A stretch of DNA of 34,198 nucleotides, taken from contig CALXAU010000005.1 in the NCBI GenBank assembly GCA_944386355.1, forward strand, positions 1 to 34,198, written 5' to 3'. Of the stretch, positions 2,652 to 22,075 are shown piece after piece (the first letter of the stretch is position 1; each line of letters starts with the position of its first letter). The notes under the pieces were generated by a model, which was not told the origin of the DNA, searched no databases, and saw nothing but the letters and a program-made list of their open reading frames with translations. The stretch comes from an uncultured Clostridia bacterium (GTDB lineage: Bacteria > Bacillota > Clostridia > TANB77 > CAG-508). The position numbers and the translations under genes were made by a program.

Positions 2652-3134
2652 CTATAATGTCCTATAATTATTTTTATCTGCTCTTTCATCTAGTTCTCTA
2701 TCAAATTGTTTATTTTTATAAAACCAATCTGTTTTTTTATCTACAGGATGAGCCTTTCTTCCTTTATCTAATAACAAATCTAATAGTACAGCAATAGGTA
2801 TTATCATTCCTACTAATGAAACAAATGCATTAAAATAAGTTATAGTGTTAACTGTTACTTCTGGATTTATCATATCCATAACTGAATTATATAAATATAC
2901 TCCAAAATACATACCATATGCCATTAGATAAATTAAAGCTCCTGTAATTTTTCTTTTTACTATTAATATTAAACATAATATTACTACAAATAACAAGATT
3001 ATTTCTAATTTTTGATTTAATGGTTCTACCCCTATTAAATCCATTTTAAATTCAAAACTTATTGCTACAACTAACCTAAATAGCCAAAATAAAATCATGA
3101 ACATTACTAACATCCATGTAGAAAAATTTTTCAT
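2652..3134 (-). CDS. Four-helix membrane protein with T[DE]WFY tail, function unknown
   Basis: A 160-aa protein with about four hydrophobic segments (near residues 5-27, 42-60, 64-86 and 98-122) followed by a charged cytoplasmic tail, KKTDWFYKNKQFDRELDERA. I do not recognise a named family. The four-helix plus T-D/E-WFY layout is shared with the first part of the gene at 21287-22075 (NTEWFYSYK), so the two may be paralogues. The start at 3134 has an AAGGAGG site 7 nt upstream. That site abuts the T-run of the terminator of the preceding operon, so expression may depend on readthrough. The gene sits between the chromosomal operon and the mobile-looking region. Confidence 0.75.
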   Translation of the reverse strand: MKNFSTWMLVMFMILFWLFRLVVAISFEFKMDLIGVEPLNQKLEIILLFVVILCLILIVKRKITGALIYLMAYGMYFGVYLYNSVMDMINPEVTVNTITYFNAFVSLVGMIIPIAVLLDLLLDKGRKAHPVDKKTDWFYKNKQFDRELDERADKNNYRTL

Positions 3135-3148
3135 TTGTTTTCCTCCTT

Positions 3149-3176
3149 AAAAAATAATAGGCGGATATTGTCCGCC
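3149..3176 (-). terminator. Terminator of the ireB-ruvX-DUF1292 operon
   Basis: On the minus strand GGCGGA pairs with TCCGCC across a 5-nt loop (CAATA), followed by TATTATTTTTT. It is one of the few GC-rich spots in the window and lies 28 nt past the DUF1292 stop codon. Confidence 0.85.
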
Positions 3177-3203
3177 CTCCTTACCTCTTTTTTATTACTT
3201 TTT

Positions 3204-3515
3204 TTATTCTTCATCAATAAAATCAAATTCATCTTTAAATTTTTCTTTAAATATTTGAAATACTTTATTTAAAATTTCTTCGTCTTCTACTCCTACGTAT
3301 GATTCTTCATCTGAGTCTTCATCATCATTATCTTCTACTTTTAAGATAACAACTTCTCCTTCATCTTCTTCCCCTTCTTCTGTTACTGGTAATAAGACAA
3401 CATATTCTTCGTCATCTAATTCTACTAAATCTAAAAATTCAAATTTTACTTCATTACCTTCTTCATCATTTAATGTTACTATGTTATCAATTTCTTCATC
3501 AAAATTTTCTTCCAT
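3204..3515 (-). CDS. DUF1292 family protein (YrzB-like)
   Basis: A 103-aa, very acidic protein matching the DUF1292 family of Firmicutes. The recognisable parts are the opening DNIVTLNDEEGNEVKFEFLD, then ELDDEEYVVLLP and the EVVILKVED strand. The centre (about residues 65-78) is an Asp/Glu-rich stretch, and the C-terminal helix is VFQIFKEKF. The molecular role of this family is not established. It is the last gene of the conserved ireB-ruvX-DUF1292 order (yrzL-yrrK-yrzB in Bacillus), which supports the call. A GGAG site precedes the ATG at 3515, and a GC-rich hairpin terminator follows at 3149-3176. Confidence 0.9.
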   Translation of the reverse strand: MEENFDEEIDNIVTLNDEEGNEVKFEFLDLVELDDEEYVVLLPVTEEGEEDEGEVVILKVEDNDDEDSDEESYVGVEDEEILNKVFQIFKEKFKDEFDFIDEE

Positions 3516-3579: not shown

Positions 3580-4014
3580 TTACTTTTTTTGCAAGCTATT
3601 TTTTGTTTTATTTAAATATGTTTCTAAAATATATTCTGCACTAATAGTATCAACTATATTTTTCTTTTTATTCCTATTTACATCTAAAAAGTTCATTGTT
3701 TTTTGAGCTTCTACTGTTGTTAATCTTTCGTCAATGGTTTCTATCTTTATTTTAGGATATTTGCATTTCAGTTTATGTATAAATTTTTCTGTTATTTGTG
3801 CTCTTTCAGATTTATCTCCATTCATATGTAGTGGCATTCCTACAACTATAGTGTCTATTTCGTATTTTTCTAATATTTCATCTAGTTTTCTTAATATTAT
3901 TTTATCTGAATTTTGTCTAATTAATGTTTCTAGACCTTGCACTGTTATATTGAGTGGATCTGTTATTGCTATTCCAACTCTCATTGCACCATAGTCTATA
4001 CCTAACATTCTCAT
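3580..4014 (-). CDS. ruvX: RuvX/YqgF family putative Holliday junction resolvase / pre-16S rRNA nuclease
   Basis: A 144-aa protein with the RNase H-like fold of the YqgF family, active in 16S rRNA 5'-end processing and proposed as a Holliday junction resolvase. Motifs are the first strand MLGIDYGAMRVGIAITDP (catalytic Asp 6), the middle IDTIVVGMPLHMNG, and the C-terminal IETIDERLTTVEA with the conserved Asp-Glu-Arg. The family also keeps a final Asp near the end, seen here as NIVDTISAEYILETYL. Length is typical. The ATG at 4014 follows a GAGGT site. It lies between ireB and DUF1292, the usual Firmicutes neighbours. Confidence 0.95.
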   Translation of the reverse strand: MRMLGIDYGAMRVGIAITDPLNITVQGLETLIRQNSDKIILRKLDEILEKYEIDTIVVGMPLHMNGDKSERAQITEKFIHKLKCKYPKIKIETIDERLTTVEAQKTMNFLDVNRNKKKNIVDTISAEYILETYLNKTKNSLQKK

Positions 4015-4169: not shown

Positions 4170-4418
4170 TTATATTCCTATATAGTTTCTTACTAGCTTT
4201 TCTAAAAGTTCGTCTCTTTCTATCATTCTAATTTTATTTCTAGCATCTTTATGACTTGTTATATATGTTGGATCTCCTGATAAAATATATCCAACTATTT
4301 GGTTTATAGGGTTATACCCTTTTTCTGTTAATGCTTCATAAACTTCTTTTAATATTTTTTTTGTGTCTACATTTTCTTCTTTTTCCATTTTAAAATTCAT
4401 AGTTTTATCAAATTCCAT
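4170..4418 (-). CDS. ireB: IreB family regulatory phosphoprotein (DUF965)
   Basis: An 82-aa protein of the DUF965/IreB family. In Enterococcus IreB is phosphorylated by the Ser/Thr kinase IreK and influences cephalosporin tolerance. Diagnostic stretches are DKTMNFKM near the start, [25 protein letters not shown] and the C-terminal [18 protein letters not shown] block. I chose the ATG at 4418 over an in-frame GTG at 4427 because AAAGGA lies about 11 nt from the ATG but only 2 nt from the GTG. In many Firmicutes alaS precedes this gene; here a GAF/GGDEF-like gene ends 26 nt upstream instead. Confidence 0.92.
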
Positions 4419-4453
4419 TTTTATCACATTCCTTTCTTGACATAACTGTAATT

Positions 4454-5596
4454 TTATATACTTGTAATGTCGCTTTCGCTTTTGTCTGCATTATCTATGT
4501 ATTCTTCTAGTTTTTTCAAAACTTCTTCAAGTCCTGTTCCTTTATAATATGATGATAGGACAAAATTTAATTTTGGAACTGCCACTTGTTTTTCTTTTTG
4601 TTTTTTTGTTTTCTTTTTATTTTTTGTATCTTCGATTTCTATTTCTTCAATATCTTCATCATCATCTAATGATATTTGCATTTTTTCTACACTATCTTTT
4701 AAGTCATTTAGAAAATCTGCAACTCCGTCTGTTTCTACTCCTGAAAAGGCAATTACAAATTTAGGTCCCATATATCTAACAAAAATATAGTCTTCTGATA
4801 TATTTGCTTTTACATATTCACTAATTTCTGTAATGACCTTATTTCCTAATTCTCTAGAGAATGTTTGGTTTATTTCTTCTAAATTAGTTATTCTAAACAT
4901 ACTTATTGTTGAGATTGTATATTGATCTATAAGTTTTTTTCCTTCATTATATAAATATTCTCCAGAGTATAGTCCACTATATAAGTCTTTTCTTACAAGT
5001 GATTCTAATGTCTTTTGATGTACTACTGTTTTTAATACAGAAACTATATTGTCTTTTATTACTTCTAAAACAGTTGTGTCCACATTATCAAAATCATGTG
5101 GTGTTCCACTTTCTATTATCCAATATCCAATGTATACATTGTCAATATAAAGTGGGAAGAATATCGCTGCCTTTGCTCTTCCAAATTCCATTTGTTGGTA
5201 AGGAAGTCTTTCGTCTTCTTTATTAACTGTAATATATTTAGGAGTTGCTGTTGCAATGCTGTCTTTAAAAATTTCAACATCTTGCAAACATGTAAGTGCT
5301 CTCCAATGTTTTTCGTCTACATTTGAAGCTTTTATTTCGTATTCTGCACCATTATATACAACTATTGTAGAGTATTTTATTTCATATCTTTCTATTAATA
5401 TGTTATTTATCTTTTTAATTTTATCATCTACTGTTGATGTTTCTCCTATTGCATTCATAAAGTCTTGTACGACTGTTAGATTATTTATTCTTTGATTTAT
5501 ATTTCTAAATGTTTGTATTTTTTTATATATACTAAGATTATATATAACTAAGCCTATTACAACAACTACTAATATGATAACAACTCCTGTAAGCAC
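4454..5596 (-). CDS. Membrane-anchored GAF plus degenerate GGDEF protein
   Basis: A 380-aa protein with one N-terminal membrane helix (residues 4-23), a GAF-like sensor domain (about 50-195, including [19 protein letters not shown]) and a GGDEF-like domain (about 205-370). In the GGDEF domain the signature loop reads [11 protein letters not shown] (274-284), so the GG[DE]EF residues are missing and cyclase activity is unlikely. A Lys/Glu/Asp-rich insert (311-337) interrupts the fold. The start is a GTG at 5596, with GGAGG 9 nt upstream. It follows the CpaE-like ATPase gene by 21 nt and probably shares its mRNA. Such proteins usually act as sensors, c-di-GMP-binding or scaffold partners; which applies here cannot be told. 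The GAF assignment is by pattern only. Confidence 0.8.
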
Positions 5597-5617
5597 AGTG
5601 ATTTTCCTCCTTTTAGT

Positions 5618-7927
5618 TTAATATTTTCGTTTCATTTGATTTAAAGTATCATTCATGCTTGGTGAAAATCTTCCATTAGAATATCCTGTTGTTTGATTTT
5701 TGTATCCTCCTTTTGATGTTTGTTGAGGTATATATGGATATACCATATTTCCCAATTCTTTAAGTATTTGCATAAAGGTTTTTGAGTATCCTTTTAAAGA
5801 TATTTCACAATTTATTATTTCTGCTAAATATTTAGTATATATTTCTTCTTCAAATGGTATAGAAATATATTTTATTGTATTTCTATCAAATAATTCTGTC
5901 ATAAAAGACATTGCTGGATCATTATAAAATGCCATTCCCCCAATAATTGTTTTGTCTGTTATTCCTCTTACACTAACGTTTTTATTAAGAATTATTCTTA
6001 GTTTTTGCTCTTCTAATATATTTCTTGCCTTTAATTCTCTTAAAAATGCTGTTAATGGTTGTATTGTTAAAATATCTAGAGATTGAATTAAATAAGTCTC
6101 TTGAGATTGTTTAAAATATCCAAATGGTGTTTCGAAATCTGTATCAATTAATATTAATGAATGATTTTGCAATAAAGTCTCAAGTATTGCATCTACATTA
6201 TTTATTGCATCATCTACATCTGGTAATGATGTATATACTGTTAAATTTGGATTTACTCTTATTCCTTCTGCTTGTCCTAATTGTAAATTTTCTATACATG
6301 CTGATGCTATGTTTCTTAAATTTTCTTCATTCTTTGTATAGATATAATATGCATTTCTATTTTGTGTTGTATCTAAAATTGCTGTATTTATTCCCATAGA
6401 AGACAATAATTCTGCTAAATTATTTACAATAAATGATGTTCCATTTTTACTTGTTCCTACAAATGTAACAATTTTTTTGTCTGGTGTTAGTAGTCTTGAG
6501 AAATCTACTGTACTATTATATTCTTTTCTTGAAGAATTGTTTTTATATGTTGTTTCTTCAATTCTATTATAGGTTTGAGTAACTGGTCTACTATTATATA
6601 CATTATTTGGAACTATTTCCTCTTCTTCATCTTCAAATCCTGGTAATACACTTTCTTCTTCGTCTTCCTCTTCTTGCATATAGTTATCATTTTGATAATC
6701 ATATTCATTTGTTTGATTTATATTATCAAATCCTGGTAGTACATTTTCTTCTTCATCTTCATCTTCTTCAAATCCTGGTATTACTAAATTTTCTTCTTCT
6801 CTTATAGGTGGTTGTTGTTTTTTTGGTCTTCCTCTTCCTCTTTTTGGTTCTTGTATAGGATTGAAGTCTTCTTCAATTTGAATTTGTTCTGGTACAGGAT
6901 TTTTTCTTGGTCTTCCTCTTTTCTTTTTTGGAGGCTCTTGAACTTCCTCTATTTTTTCTTCTTTAGTTTTATTAATATTATTTTCTTTTGCCATTTTTCC
7001 TAAATTTTCTCCTTGCAAAATTTCTTTATTTGTTAAAATTGGTTTTGGTTTTGAAAGTTTTCTTCCTCCTTCTGTATTAACAGAAGACGGAATAACTACT
7101 GGTTTTGACATAACTATATTTTTCTTTTGTCCTAATAATTTTTCACTAGGACCGCTATTTTCAGTATCTTCTTCGCCTTTTTTAGATTTTTTTGTAGTGC
7201 TAGTTTTTCTTATTTTGTCTGATACTGCATTATTAAAAGACATTACTGTTTGATATTTAGGTGATTTTTCTTCTAATACTGCTTTTACATTTAATGGTAA
7301 AAATTTTATAATTATTCTAAGTTGTGTATCATTATATTGTGCTGCAATATTATCAAAACTTTCTACATATCTTTTTTCATCTTTTCCTAATTTTTTATAA
7401 TATGCTAATATGTTTTGTATTTCTAACTCACTTACATCATTTTCGTTTTCAGCTTGATAATTTGCATCTTCTGCATCTATCTTATAGTATGTTTTTCCTT
7501 CTTTTTTTAAACGAGGTCTTTTAATTAATCGACATACTTCTTCTATACTTCTATCATTTCCAATTATCGCATTATAAATACCTATTGAAAATAGTTTTAC
7601 TAATATAGGCTCTGATTTTGTTCTTCTATCTGAACATATTAAAATGATAGGAATGTCATTACCTTTTATATTAGAAGCTTCATCACTTATGTTGTCCAAT
7701 TTATCAAAAATAAATTTGTCTATCTGGTCATATTGTGTATTTGAAAAGCTCTCTAAATCTTCACTAATTACAATTCTATCATATGTTTTGTCTTTTTGTA
7801 TTTCTTTTAATATTGCATTAAAGTAATAAACATTTTTATATGTGATAATTTGTTTATATTCTTTTTGATATTTATTTACTATAGATTTTGAGATTTCTTC
7901 ATTACTTACTGCAAATAAAACTTTCAT
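5618..7927 (-). CDS. TadZ/CpaE-like ATPase with receiver-like N-terminus and AT-hook linker
   Basis: A 769-aa, three-part protein. Residues 1-130 resemble an atypical response-regulator receiver (MKVLFAVSNEE, DRIVISEDLE, IPIILICSDRR). A long charged linker (about 240-480) carries two AT-hook motifs, KKRGRPRKNP (near 335) and KRGRGRPKKQQ (near 363), and three 'V-L/I-PGF' repeats in acidic context (near 382, 396 and 427). The C-terminal about 280 residues are a MinD/ParA-like ATPase of the CpaE/TadZ kind: VTFVGTSKNGTSFIVNNLAE at the P-loop, then NTAILDTTQN and SLILIDTDFE. The P-loop lacks the usual KGGVGKT, as in atypical TadZ proteins. CpaE/TadZ proteins position pilus or envelope machines at the membrane. 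It starts 3 nt after the small two-helix membrane protein gene. Confidence 0.8.
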   Translation of the reverse strand: MKVLFAVSNEEISKSIVNKYQKEYKQIITYKNVYYFNAILKEIQKDKTYDRIVISEDLESFSNTQYDQIDKFIFDKLDNISDEASNIKGNDIPIILICSDRRTKSEPILVKLFSIGIYNAIIGNDRSIEEVCRLIKRPRLKKEGKTYYKIDAEDANYQAENENDVSELEIQNILAYYKKLGKDEKRYVESFDNIAAQYNDTQLRIIIKFLPLNVKAVLEEKSPKYQTVMSFNNAVSDKIRKTSTTKKSKKGEEDTENSGPSEKLLGQKKNIVMSKPVVIPSSVNTEGGRKLSKPKPILTNKEILQGENLGKMAKENNINKTKEEKIEEVQEPPKKKRGRPRKNPVPEQIQIEEDFNPIQEPKRGRGRPKKQQPPIREEENLVIPGFEEDEDEEENVLPGFDNINQTNEYDYQNDNYMQEEEDEEESVLPGFEDEEEEIVPNNVYNSRPVTQTYNRIEETTYKNNSSRKEYNSTVDFSRLLTPDKKIVTFVGTSKNGTSFIVNNLAELLSSMGINTAILDTTQNRNAYYIYTKNEENLRNIASACIENLQLGQAEGIRVNPNLTVYTSLPDVDDAINNVDAILETLLQNHSLILIDTDFETPFGYFKQSQETYLIQSLDILTIQPLTAFLRELKARNILEEQKLRIILNKNVSVRGITDKTIIGGMAFYNDPAMSFMTELFDRNTIKYISIPFEEEIYTKYLAEIINCEISLKGYSKTFMQILKELGNMVYPYIPQQTSKGGYKNQTTGYSNGRFSPSMNDTLNQMKRKY

Positions 7928-7930
7928 TTG

Positions 7931-8338
7931 TTACCCCCTTCCAAATTTTACAAATACTGCAAATGCTAATGGTAAAATTTGGCATATAATTAATATAGTT
8001 ACAAAACTAACAATAAGTGCCATACCTTTTTCTAAAGTATCTAACTTTCTAACACCTATTACATATTGATGTATTGCTCCTATTGCAATTCCTAAAAAAC
8101 AAAGTGGAATACTATATATTCTTACTTGATTTAAAATGTAAGCAACTAATCCATATGTATCTGAGCCGTATTTTTGCTTATAATCTTCTAAAGATTTGGC
8201 TGTGTTTTCTTTTATCTCTACTAGTTTGCTTTCTGTATTTTCATCTAATACTTTTTCTGTAGCATATACAGGATTTATTATACTTATTATTGATAGTATA
8301 ATAATTCCAAGAAAAATTATACTTGCTACTTTTTTCAT
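7931..8338 (-). CDS. Small secreted/membrane protein with signal peptide and two C-terminal helices
   Basis: A 135-aa protein beginning with a classic signal peptide (residues 1-26, likely cut after PVYA), then a short charged region (27-60), then two hydrophobic segments (about 74-95 and 106-131) joined by the basic turn VRKLDTLEKG. This is the layout of VirB2/TrbC-type pilins and of small conjugation membrane proteins, but no diagnostic residues prove it. The ATG at 8338 has an AAGGGG site upstream. A longer reading frame extends to 8458 but would overlap the upstream gene and put 40 residues before the signal peptide, so I reject it. It is followed after 3 nt by the CpaE-like ATPase, which suggests the two products work together. 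Confidence 0.75.
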   Translation of the reverse strand: MKKVASIIFLGIIILSIISIINPVYATEKVLDENTESKLVEIKENTAKSLEDYKQKYGSDTYGLVAYILNQVRIYSIPLCFLGIAIGAIHQYVIGVRKLDTLEKGMALIVSFVTILIICQILPLAFAVFVKFGRG

Positions 8339-8444
8339 TTTTTGTTTACCCCTTTCTTTAGAGTATTTACGGAATTTACATATTTTATATACTATTCTAT
8401 CATACAATAAGTTTAAAAAAATAGCAATAATTTTCTTGAAAAAT

Positions 8445-9650
8445 TTACAATTTATCATATAAGTAGCTCATATGACTATATACTTTGTTTGCCCAGTTTT
8501 TATCAGTTGCATATCTTTTATTTACTCCACTTAATGTTGGTCCATTATAATATGTTCCTATTGCTTTTTCATTACTATATATGCTTGTACCTTTAGGATT
8601 CAAGTAATATTTAACAAAAACTCTTGCAATTAAATCGATTCCTTCTGAAACATTTGAAAAATTATATGCACTTTTATATGGACTATTATCATATGCACCA
8701 TATCCAAAAAGATTATTTTTTTGTTTTGATATATTTGAAGTCCCCCAATTACTTTCATGAATTGCAACTGCTGCTACAAAAACTCCATTAATATTATATT
8801 GTTTTTCTATATAATAAAAATATTCTGCATTTTGTGAAAATATTTTATTTACATCTTTTGAATCTGTTAATATTTGCTTAAATTGTTCTAAACTCAAGTT
8901 ACTAGGTTTATTTAATTGTATATCAAAATTTATATTTTTTGTTATATTTGAATTGTTATTTTGAACTTCTTCTTGTATTTCATAATTTTTGTTTGATGCT
9001 ATTGATTCTTTCTTTACCCAACCTGTTGCATTTTTACTATTAATATAATACCAATACTCATTTTTTTCTAAAATTGTAATTTCATCTGTTTTTAAAAGTG
9101 TTGCTATTTTTTGGCTATCTTCTTTAGGTTCTATCATAACTGATAATCTATCAGAAGTTACATATGCTGTTTCTCCAATTTGTGGATCATATTTTTTTAT
9201 TGTACTAGAAGAACCAACTTCTACAATTTTATTAATTGACGATTTCAATATTTTTGAGCTTAGTTGTTCTTCCGAGATCACATTACCATTTTCATATTTT
9301 TTCTTAATAACAACTTCTTGCATCCCAGTTCTTCCTTCTTGAATAACTTGTAATGTGCCTTTTGGTAATTTGTTATTTGTTTTATATTCAGTTATGTATT
9401 CTATTTCTTCTTGCTTTGTTTCTATTTTTTCTATAGGCTCATTAAGATTTGCTTTTATTTTTTCTTCTATATCTTTTTCATCTATTTTATTTGCATTACT
9501 AATTTTTATTTCTTGTTCTATACTTGTTTCTTTTGCATATATTTCATTATTTAAAAAATATAGGTTATAAAATGTTAATATGTATAATAAAATAATAATG
9601 GAAGTAAAAAATAGAATTATTTTTTTTATTGTTATTTTTTTATTTTTCAT
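8445..9650 (-). CDS. Secreted G5-SH3-glucosaminidase cell wall hydrolase
   Basis: A 401-aa exported protein. An N-terminal signal/anchor helix (about 7-30) is followed by a charged region, a G5-like domain (about 85-155, with GRTGMQEVVIKKKYENG), a bacterial SH3 domain (about 160-225, ending WYYINSKNATGWVKKESI) and a C-terminal N-acetylglucosaminidase domain (about 255-401). The catalytic region is AAVAIHESNWGTS, with the expected Glu, followed by NNLFGYGAYD. The enzyme should cleave the glycan backbone of peptidoglycan. The ATG at 9650 has AGGTG 8 nt upstream, and a near-consensus sigma-A promoter lies at 9670-9698. It is the first gene of the block leading to the two-helix protein and the CpaE-like ATPase. 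Confidence 0.9.
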   Translation of the reverse strand: MKNKKITIKKIILFFTSIIILLYILTFYNLYFLNNEIYAKETSIEQEIKISNANKIDEKDIEEKIKANLNEPIEKIETKQEEIEYITEYKTNNKLPKGTLQVIQEGRTGMQEVVIKKKYENGNVISEEQLSSKILKSSINKIVEVGSSSTIKKYDPQIGETAYVTSDRLSVMIEPKEDSQKIATLLKTDEITILEKNEYWYYINSKNATGWVKKESIASNKNYEIQEEVQNNNSNITKNINFDIQLNKPSNLSLEQFKQILTDSKDVNKIFSQNAEYFYYIEKQYNINGVFVAAVAIHESNWGTSNISKQKNNLFGYGAYDNSPYKSAYNFSNVSEGIDLIARVFVKYYLNPKGTSIYSNEKAIGTYYNGPTLSGVNKRYATDKNWANKVYSHMSYLYDKL

Positions 9651-12433: not shown

Positions 12434-12458
12434 TTAAAAATATTAATTGCGATTTATT
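12422..12458. terminator. Bidirectional terminator between convergent genes
   Basis: A 15-bp stem, AATAAATCGTAATTA (12422-12436) against TAATTGCGATTTATT (12444-12458), one wobble, 7-nt loop, flanked by A- and T-rich sequence. It contains the stop codon of the ligase gene and reaches the stop of the prepilin peptidase gene. Confidence 0.75.
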
Positions 12459-13206
12459 ATTTATATAAACCTAAAGTAAAAATTTGTAATAATATCATTT
12501 TTATTGTTTCAAAAGGTACATATATACTAATTAAAGCACCTAATACGATAAATGGGCCAAATGGTATGTATTCATTAGATTTTTTTATATGTGTTGCAAG
12601 TAAAAATATACTTAGTACAGCACCTATTAAAAAAGATAATAATGTAATTATTATTATATTAGAAAGTCCAAAAACTATTCCAAGTGCTCCCATTAATTTT
12701 ACATCACCAAATCCCATTGCTTCTTTTCCATAGAATAATCCTCCTAAGAAAGTTATAATAAAGAATATTCCTGCTCCTGCACACATTCCAAGTAACATAT
12801 TTATAGATATTGCTACATCTGATAAACCATATAAAAAAGCAAATACTATACCAACTTCTAATAATGTTAGATTAAGCCTATTTGGAATTATTTGATACTT
12901 ATAATCAATTACAAATACTGATAATAGCATTGGTGTAACTATTAAAAATTTTATTAGATCTAAATTTTCTATTACAGAATTATGAATTCCATAAACATAT
13001 ACTAAAAATACGTATATTATTGAAGTTAATATCATTAATATGTAATTTGGTTTAAATTCTAATTTATATTCTTTTATAATGTCTAAAGAAATTACTTTTT
13101 TATATTCTGGAAGTCTTTTATTTGTCCAATCCACAATTTGCCCTACAAATAAACCTATTATTGCAAATATAGCATAATAAAATATTGGTACATCATTTAT
13201 ATACAT
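12457..13206 (-). CDS. A24 family prepilin peptidase
   Basis: A 249-aa polytopic membrane protein with about seven hydrophobic segments. Both catalytic aspartate motifs of type IV prepilin peptidases are seen: VIDYKYQIIPNRL (Asp near 103) and MGFGDVKLMGALG (GxGDxK, Asp near 170). The N-terminal zinc/methyltransferase domain of PilD/ComC is absent, as in many short Firmicutes A24 enzymes. It should cut prepilin leaders at the cytoplasmic face of the membrane. A plausible substrate is the prepilin-like segment encoded at 20977-22075. The ATG at 13206 has AAGGAG upstream. It follows yqeG by 11 nt. Confidence 0.93.
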   Translation of the reverse strand: MYINDVPIFYYAIFAIIGLFVGQIVDWTNKRLPEYKKVISLDIIKEYKLEFKPNYILMILTSIIYVFLVYVYGIHNSVIENLDLIKFLIVTPMLLSVFVIDYKYQIIPNRLNLTLLEVGIVFAFLYGLSDVAISINMLLGMCAGAGIFFIITFLGGLFYGKEAMGFGDVKLMGALGIVFGLSNIIIITLLSFLIGAVLSIFLLATHIKKSNEYIPFGPFIVLGALISIYVPFETIKMILLQIFTLGLYK

Positions 13207-20976: not shown

Positions 20977-21309
20977 TTAATTTTCTTCTTTAGAATATGT
21001 ATATAAAGGTTTTCCTGTTTTTGTTACTAGTTTTGTATTATTTATTACCTCTCCTGTTTTATAATTTACTATATATGTACTTTTACTGTTTTCTACACCT
21101 ATTTCTTCAAGTTCGTTTTGTTCTAGTAAATAATAGTCTTCTTCATTTCCCTTTTTTTGTATTTGTTCTTCTTCTGTAGATTTTTTAGAATTTATTTCTT
21201 GTATTATTTCGTCGATTTGTATTCCTTCGTCTAAAAGTGTTTTTCCAGGCAAGCTCTCCTTTGTTATATTTGCTTTTGTATATGTTTCATATACTGCATG
21301 TTGTATCAT
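20977..21309 (-). pseudogene. Displaced C-terminal part of the prepilin-like gene
   Basis: Read in this frame the protein is about 110 aa (MIQHAVYETYTKANITKESL onward, ending LYTYSKEEN), with Glu/Gln-rich middle part and a beta-rich end (TYIVNYKTGEVIN). The same frame stays open upstream to about 21353 and reads GTDSVQEKADIAELT before the Met. This is the natural continuation of the prepilin stem GITLVTLVITI...SITGGIK encoded in the next frame: 'KADIAEL' stems follow such leaders in Clostridia pseudopilins. One extra base near 21353-21356 (in TTCCGCTTTA) explains the break. It is annotated as a fragment; independent translation from the Met at 21309 has no good ribosome site. Confidence 0.65.
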
Positions 21310-22075
21310 AGTAAGTTCTGCTATGTCTGCTTTTTCTTGAACACTGTCTGTTCCGCTTTATTCCTCCTGTTATTGATATTGAGGCAATTATTAATAACAC
21401 TACTATTGTAATTACTAGTGTAACTAATGTAATTCCTTCGTTTTTTCTTTGGTTTTGCATTTTTCTTTCCATTCTCCTTTTTTCTTTTTCTATAAGTCTA
21501 TTTGTTTCTTCGTTATATGTTACTTCATCAATTTCTCCTGAGTCTAATAATTCTTTCCATTCTGAAAGTTCTTTTTCTATTTTGGCTTTTCTTTTTTCTT
21601 CTTTATCATCTGTTGCTTCAGTTTTATATGAATAAAACCATTCTGTATTTTTTATTGTTTTTCTATTAGGTTTTCTATATTCAATTTTATGTATTTCGTT
21701 TTTTTGCCTTATTACACTTCCTGCTTTCATGTACATTCCACATTCCATGGAAAGAGAAATAAATGTTAGAAATGGTGGGGCAAAAAATTCTATTAATACT
21801 GCTCCTAATCCTATTAAATATCCTACTATTACTTCTGGTTGATTTGTAAGATTGAATATTATCATTATTACTGAACCCATGGCTAATATAAATTGCGCAA
21901 TTCCTAACATTAATGCAAGATTTGTATAATTATAAAAAAAGTCTAATTCTCCATTTACTATTGCTCCAAGACTTGTAGCAAATTGTATTAATAGTAAAAT
22001 TACAAGTATCATTTTTAATGCTCCTACTCCAAAAAGAGCATACCCAAATATTTCATTTATTTTTTTTAAAATCAT
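21287..22075 (-). CDS. Four-helix SHOCT protein fused to a prepilin-type leader (frameshifted at the end)
   Basis: A 262-aa reading frame. Residues 1-120 hold about four membrane helices. A T-E-WFY motif (NTEWFYSYK, near 146) follows, then a SHOCT-like short domain (ELSEWKELLDSGEIDEVTYN, about 172-200). A basic stretch leads into a type IV prepilin-like leader and helix, NEGITLVTLVITIVVLLIIA (about 214-233). The last about 30 residues after SITGGIK (IKRNRQCSRKSRHS...) are out of frame; a single-base change near 21355 would join this to the 110-aa fragment at 20977-21309. Either the two halves were separate genes now fused, or this is a real fusion. A GGGGAA site precedes the ATG at 22075. A prepilin peptidase gene lies in the same strand run at 12457-13206. 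Confidence 0.75.
   Translation of the reverse strand: MILKKINEIFGYALFGVGALKMILVILLLIQFATSLGAIVNGELDFFYNYTNLALMLGIAQFILAMGSVIMIIFNLTNQPEVIVGYLIGLGAVLIEFFAPPFLTFISLSMECGMYMKAGSVIRQKNEIHKIEYRKPNRKTIKNTEWFYSYKTEATDDKEEKRKAKIEKELSEWKELLDSGEIDEVTYNEETNRLIEKEKRRMERKMQNQRKNEGITLVTLVITIVVLLIIASISITGGIKRNRQCSRKSRHSRTYYDTTCSI

Follow-up and report, generated by a model that had tools for sequence, protein, structure and literature searches.

ATPases of the TadZ/CpaE type have so far been treated mainly as part of the Tad pilus. Within that machine TadZ takes up a polar position and brings in further components (PMC6668835), and in Caulobacter rings of CpaE surround CpaF, the Tad motor (PMC13170226). TadZ-like proteins have also been reported as parts of T7SSf, where TsfV is a TadZ-like ATPase on a non-Tad secretion system (PMC11217815). 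No relevant report of an orphan TadZ or CpaE-like protein was found in the literature.

The protein described here, P0002, is encoded in a 34,198-nucleotide stretch of DNA (the window) from an uncultured Clostridia bacterium. With the TadZ/CpaE proteins of Tad (T4c) pili, such as that of PDB entry 3fkq, it shares a MinD-fold ATPase, a deviant Walker A motif and probably a Rec-like domain, but it lies outside a Tad locus, carries a long disordered linker, comes from a first, degenerate lineage and has a fixed partner, the membrane protein P0003. Its fold is also that of the MinD/ParA positioning ATPases MinD, FlhG and BcsQ (Z 17-21; a positioning role is presumed), from which it differs by its putative Rec-like domain and by the missing P-loop Lys. 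P0003 and P0002 form a conserved, order-wide module of two genes and not a four-gene surface appendage.

Layout of the Locus

The preliminary description singled out four tightly spaced minus-strand genes under one good promoter and read them as the parts of one machine. All four ORFs are present at the expected positions (Table 1), with gaps of 106 nt between P0004 and P0003 (counting P0003 from 8338), 3 nt between P0003 and P0002, and 21 nt between P0002 and P0001. The run is not confined to these genes but continues on the same strand, after a further 26 nt, into ireB, ruvX and a DUF1292 gene, as assigned by Pfam. Terminator-like sites number three in the region, against 1.0 expected. A promoter-like site does stand ahead of P0004, but such sites are not enriched (58 in the region versus 67.9 in shuffles), so that it stands as a candidate and not as a proven single promoter for the genes. 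Beyond the terminator-like site lies a gene for a 160-aa membrane protein (2652-3134), which has no Pfam match and is kept by part of the genus (cluster c10).

Table 1. Features of the module and its surroundings, in window coordinates.
Feature	Position	Strand	Description or basis
Promoter-like site TTGACA-17-TAAAAT ahead of P0004	9670..9698	-	11/12 match to consensus
P0004	8445..9650	-	G5-SH3-glucosaminidase wall hydrolase; lineage-specific upstream neighbour
P0003	7931..8338	-	135 aa from ATG at 8338; module core
P0002	5618..7927	-	769 aa; putative Rec-like domain, helical domain, disordered linker and MinD-fold ATPase of TadZ/CpaE lineage; module core
P0002 putative pseudo-receiver domain, residues 1-148	7484..7927	-	Alignment, model
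P0002 disordered linker	6506..7201	-	Model pLDDT <50; length varies strongly among relatives
P0002 MinD/ParA-fold domain, residues 480-733	5729..6490	-	Fold comparison
P0002 deviant Walker A GTSKNGTS	6434..6457	-	Alignment of relatives
P0001	4454..5596	-	TM + GAF-like + degenerate GGDEF (PF00990 2.9e-7); constrained accessory
ireB	4170..4427	-	Housekeeping gene after module; PF06135 8e-40
ruvX	3580..4014	-	PF03652 1.5e-40
DUF1292 protein	3204..3515	-	PF06949 2e-16; last gene ahead of terminator-like site
Intrinsic-terminator-like stem-loop 3' of DUF1292	3159..3177	-	Sequence scan

Conservation of the Pair

The relatives compared are metagenome-assembled genomes with estimated completeness values, from five families of an order of uncultured gut Clostridia. 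All 55 encode P0002, and co-occurrence statistics have no power, since it is never missing. Single-sequence searches recovered P0003 in 48 of the 55, and at least two of the missing calls are false negatives, as became clear on reading the loci (G042, G054). Wherever there was room to check, the gene immediately upstream of P0002, and on its strand, is P0003: the window's group shows this in 83/83 loci and the other families in 19/19 (102/102, including two loci with a split P0002 ORF), and the spacing can shrink to 3 nt. The pair occupies two chromosomal addresses: four families carry it before ireB, and family f2 has it after the ATP synthase operon. In the window's group ireB follows the module in 84/84 loci, in the other families in 17/19. 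The preliminary description had proposed conservation of gene order as a check on the four genes, and it holds for P0003-P0002 but not for the outer two. In the window's group P0001 comes next after P0002 in 84/84 loci, and family f5 has the same order; P0004 stands upstream of the pair in 60/76 loci of the window's group, and the other families lack it there. From this distribution, the module is taken to be P0003-P0002, with P0001 as a family-level addition and P0004 as an optional neighbour. No cargo or machine was consistently linked in cis to the pair in the loci read.

The ATPase P0002 and Its Ancestry

The assignment of P0002 as an atypical TadZ/CpaE ATPase was borne out by both fold and tree. 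In fold comparisons, the C-terminal domain matched 3ea0 (Z 21.1, rmsd 2.6, 223 aligned) and MinD 4v02 (Z 20.7), and the Foldseek matches of P0002 include Eubacterium rectale TadZ, PDB 3fkq (E 1.2e-4). A sequence search of the PDB returned low-complexity matches from the linker only, which were discarded. The Walker A motif is invariant among relatives as G-x-x-K-x-G-T-[ST], with an invariant Thr497 in place of the P-loop Lys and an equally invariant Lys494. The N-terminal domain is probably Rec-like, as its secondary structure fits Rec and its sequence aligns with the Rec-ATPases of Tad loci; its invariant Glu56 lies just past strand beta3, at the place of the phospho-acceptor Asp of receivers, a position assigned by eye. 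Homologues range from 562 to 1056 aa in total length. Those outside the window's group mostly end in a short basic-hydrophobic tail, for example KKGLFGR, which is a plausible candidate docking tail. Closely related pairs gave dN/dS values of 0.09-0.14, indicating purifying selection.

Outside the order, the close relatives of P0002 sit in Tad loci (L127, L132, L129), where two neighbouring MinD-type ATPases flank a CpaB/RcpC-like gene. In a maximum-likelihood tree, in which the outgroup Rec-ATPases are on long branches, P0002 groups with G185_first (100/99) and then with G250_first and G326_first (95/93), while TadZ from the VirB4/Tad loci described below is placed with the second Rec-ATPase type and CpaE, apart from P0002. 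The separation of first and second types in this tree appears good but not final. On this tree, P0002 derives from the first, degenerate type of Rec-ATPase in clostridial Tad loci.

In genome G365, a type VII locus (L128:160-10149, contig C2) is followed by a paralogue of the P0002 ATPase domain, immediately after EssC and YukD; the order reads as a WXG100-like gene, EssC with FHA, a YukD-like gene and then the paralogue. This invites comparison with TsfV. P0002 itself differs from TsfV in having no T7SS genes nearby, and WXG100 proteins were found in just 2 of the 55 relatives, one of them above the cut-off.

The Membrane Partner P0003

The protein had been described as a signal-peptide protein with two C-terminal helices, and this layout was recovered. 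A Sec-type leader (about residues 1-26) ends in VYA and is followed by an amphipathic helix (33-57), and the model (pLDDT 78.6) places TM helices at 60-94 and 99-133 with a short charged loop between them. Pro78 and Gly105 are invariant in the alignment, and dN/dS in closely related pairs is about 0.06-0.14, with two noisy pairs higher, again consistent with purifying selection. Structure prediction had been suggested as a check on this 135-aa protein; it yielded the two long helices, but a fold search with the model returned generic helical hairpins only, none at E <= 0.001. A class-wide sample contained no convincing homologue outside the order, the few weak matches covering the leader only. 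A P0003-like match on contig C7 of G005 proved to be a different small membrane protein.

The further suggestion that P0003 is pilin- or VirB2-like fell below every threshold and was rejected. VirB2/TrbC and T4SS_pilin proteins (PF04956, PF18895) share with it a leader, two TM helices and a short charged cytoplasmic loop, but the P0003 family remains sub-cut-off: P0003 itself gave no match, and four relatives scanned singly matched T4SS_pilin, the best at 1.7e-5 and 25.2 bits against a cut-off of 26.6. Alignment by hhalign with true VirB2-like pilins gave a probability of 23%, compared with 0.5% for a two-helix control family, and the pilin-profile HMM matches land on the leader region. The true, strong members are separate proteins in the VirB4 loci of the relatives, of which 20/20 match T4SS_pilin and 17/20 TrbC (alignment A6). 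At most, P0003 may resemble a VirB2-type helical hairpin in the way it works, while its sequence fails as a member of that family.

The Flanking Genes P0001 and P0004

P0001 was correctly recognised from the outset as a dead membrane GGDEF protein, its active-site motif being MGPKF instead of GGDEF. Across 17 sequences the motif reads MGPKF, SGSKF, SGIRL and similar, and the GG[DE]EF of active diguanylate cyclases is absent; P0001 likewise lacks the RxxD inhibitory site expected of a classical c-di-GMP receptor. The gene is absent from f3 and f4 loci. In family f2, a GAF-GGDEF diguanylate cyclase homologous to P0001 over most of its length is encoded away from the module (L095, L096), and it differs in retaining an intact FGGEEF motif. 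As P0001 is under strong purifying selection (dN/dS 0.03-0.09 in closely related pairs), it is taken to be functional though inactive, in a role other than that of a cyclase. The genome of the window also encodes one REC-GGDEF and one GGDEF-EAL protein, so that c-di-GMP chemistry is likely present.

The reading of P0004 as a G5/SH3/glucosaminidase stands, all three domains lying above the Pfam cut-off (G5 6e-18, SH3_3 4e-8, glucosaminidase 7e-16), and the gene is under purifying selection (dN/dS 0.07-0.17 in closely related pairs). In five loci of family f4 (L066, L070, L073, L076, L081), the gene just ahead of the P0003 homologue encodes a D-alanyl-D-alanine carboxypeptidase (PF00768) and takes the place of the glucosaminidase. 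The hint of a wall role offered by these two enzymes was set aside because the upstream genes of other families are unrelated.

Secretion and Pilus Machinery Elsewhere in the Genomes

As noted in the preliminary description, the window contains no Tad or T4SS secretion ATPase, with no VirB4 in cis, but such ATPases do occur elsewhere in the same genome. Contig C10 carries a type IV pilus locus (PilB/PilT/PilC/PilM-like/PilD-like), and VirB4-like ATPases are encoded on C1 and C6. TadA, TadB, TadC and Flp pilin are all absent from the window, TadA profile matches in the whole genome reach only PilT level, and no TadA was detected in the genus, in which the pair is kept. A PF00437 match on C31 was dismissed as a RecD-like helicase.

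In families f3-f5 and others, loci often found beside gyrA (L217-L223, L226-L230) combine a VirB4-like ATPase (P-loop_TraG 4e-27; CagE_TrbE_VirB above cut-off) with TadZ, TadA and TadB, an unusual Tad/T4SS mixture. The locus between gyrB and gyrA on C6 of the window's own genome (L232:8703-14735) is a remnant of this arrangement: it retains VirB4N, a VirB4 split by a group II intron (matching Rfam RF02012 and RF00029 at 10272-11589 of L232), another TadZ-like ATPase that has diverged, and a 237-aa helical protein, but has lost TadA and TadB. A VirB2(xn)-VirB3/PrgI-VirB4-VirB6-like locus is very widespread in the order (L234-L247); the copy on C1 of the window's own genome (L233:2564-12518) is missing the VirB2-like genes upstream of PrgI.

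Possible Roles of the Pair

The explanation we favour, at roughly even chances, is that P0003-P0002 is a positioning ATPase of Tad descent, paired with a membrane partner of its own and no longer coupled to any one machine. The deviant Walker A motif and the comparison with TadZ suggest that P0002 very probably binds nucleotide, hydrolyses it inefficiently and forms dimers. It would be held at the membrane by P0003 and by its own C-terminal tail and, by analogy with TadZ/CpaE, may serve an envelope machine as a hub for positioning or recruitment. The module is untied from the Tad pilus, being kept where TadA is not detected. In two families a GGDEF protein without its catalytic motif would have joined as a membrane co-factor, and the hydrolase P0004 would have joined later as an optional neighbour. 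This explanation is supported by the ATPase in every relative, the invariant adjacency, the two addresses, the MinD fold, the TadZ-type Walker A and the tree, as well as by dN/dS values of about 0.06-0.14 in most pairs and the P0002 paralogue in a type VII locus; the module is read as portable because no single system (T4P, VirB4 or TadA) is needed for its retention. Against it count the lack of a cargo or machine consistently linked in cis, the long branches of the outgroup Rec-ATPases in the tree, and the fact that TadZ-like proteins can act elsewhere too, for instance in division. If true, a TadZ-lineage ATPase kept order-wide without a pilus and with a fixed membrane partner would show a portable positioning hub, which matches the suggestion from TadZ-like proteins in type VII loci, and the pair would offer a minimal system, of only two genes, in which to test how hubs of this kind choose a membrane site.

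The GspE/VirB4-type ATPases that the preliminary description proposed to look for elsewhere in the genomes do exist, but relatives that lack one or the other keep the pair. It is unlikely that the pair is a dispersed accessory placing or anchoring the type IV pilus of C10: that locus exists, T2SSE proteins above the cut-off occur in 50/55 relatives, near the 55/55 of P0002, and the window holds a second prepilin-peptidase-like ORF, yet G032 (estimated 100% complete) keeps the pair with no T2SSE above cut-off and no T2SSF (the PilB/PilC homologues), pair and T4P genes are never adjacent in the loci read, and TadZ is a component of Tad (T4cP) pili, not of T4aP (PMC6668835). A similarly low probability attaches to a dispersed machine of Tad/T4SS lineage, comprising the VirB4-like ATPase and second TadZ between gyrB and gyrA, with TadA and TadB added in other families, in which P0002 would partner the TadZ beside VirB4 and P0003 would be a VirB2-like subunit. 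The VirB4-TadZ-TadA-TadB loci of other families, the C6 and C1 loci of the window's own genome, the adjoining first and second Rec-ATPases of outgroup Tad loci and the few T4SS_pilin matches of P0003 relatives speak for such a machine, but those matches are sub-cut-off, hhalign gives only 23%, the HMM matches land on the leader region, G013 (estimated 100% complete) keeps the pair without VirB4, and the VirB4 at gyrB/gyrA is interrupted by its intron. A broader version, rather unlikely in our estimate, puts P0003-P0002 at the universal core of an envelope machine of this order, so far undescribed, with scattered, family-wise trimmed genes, mixing Tad-lineage parts (the two Rec-ATPases, TadA, TadB) with T4SS-lineage parts (VirB4 and possibly a VirB2-like P0003).

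Less likely still is a MinD-like regulator of division or polarity built from a Tad ATPase, with P0003 as membrane anchor and no part in secretion; the MinD fold, order-wide retention beside housekeeping genes and independence of every secretion locus tested would suit it, but no link to fts or min genes was seen in the loci read. The original view of hydrolase, two-helix subunit, ATPase and GGDEF protein as one self-contained appendage or secretion device is highly improbable, since the tight co-directional order that favours it in the window's group is contradicted by distribution: the hydrolase is missing from 16/76 loci of that group and from all other families, three of the five families lack P0001 at the locus, and there is no motor in cis. 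The relatives estimated 100% complete that lack T4P (G032) or all VirB4 (G013) keep the pair. A positioning module is a better fit than an appendage.

Two further ORFs of the window lie outside the module. One (12457-13206, minus strand) encodes a prepilin-peptidase-like (A24) membrane protein, in addition to the prepilin-peptidase-like gene of the C10 pilus locus. The other (21287-22075) is a 262-aa ORF whose C-terminal part reads like the N-terminus of a type IV prepilin (GITLVTLVITIVVLLIIASISITGG); this ORF may hold a frameshift or two merged genes.
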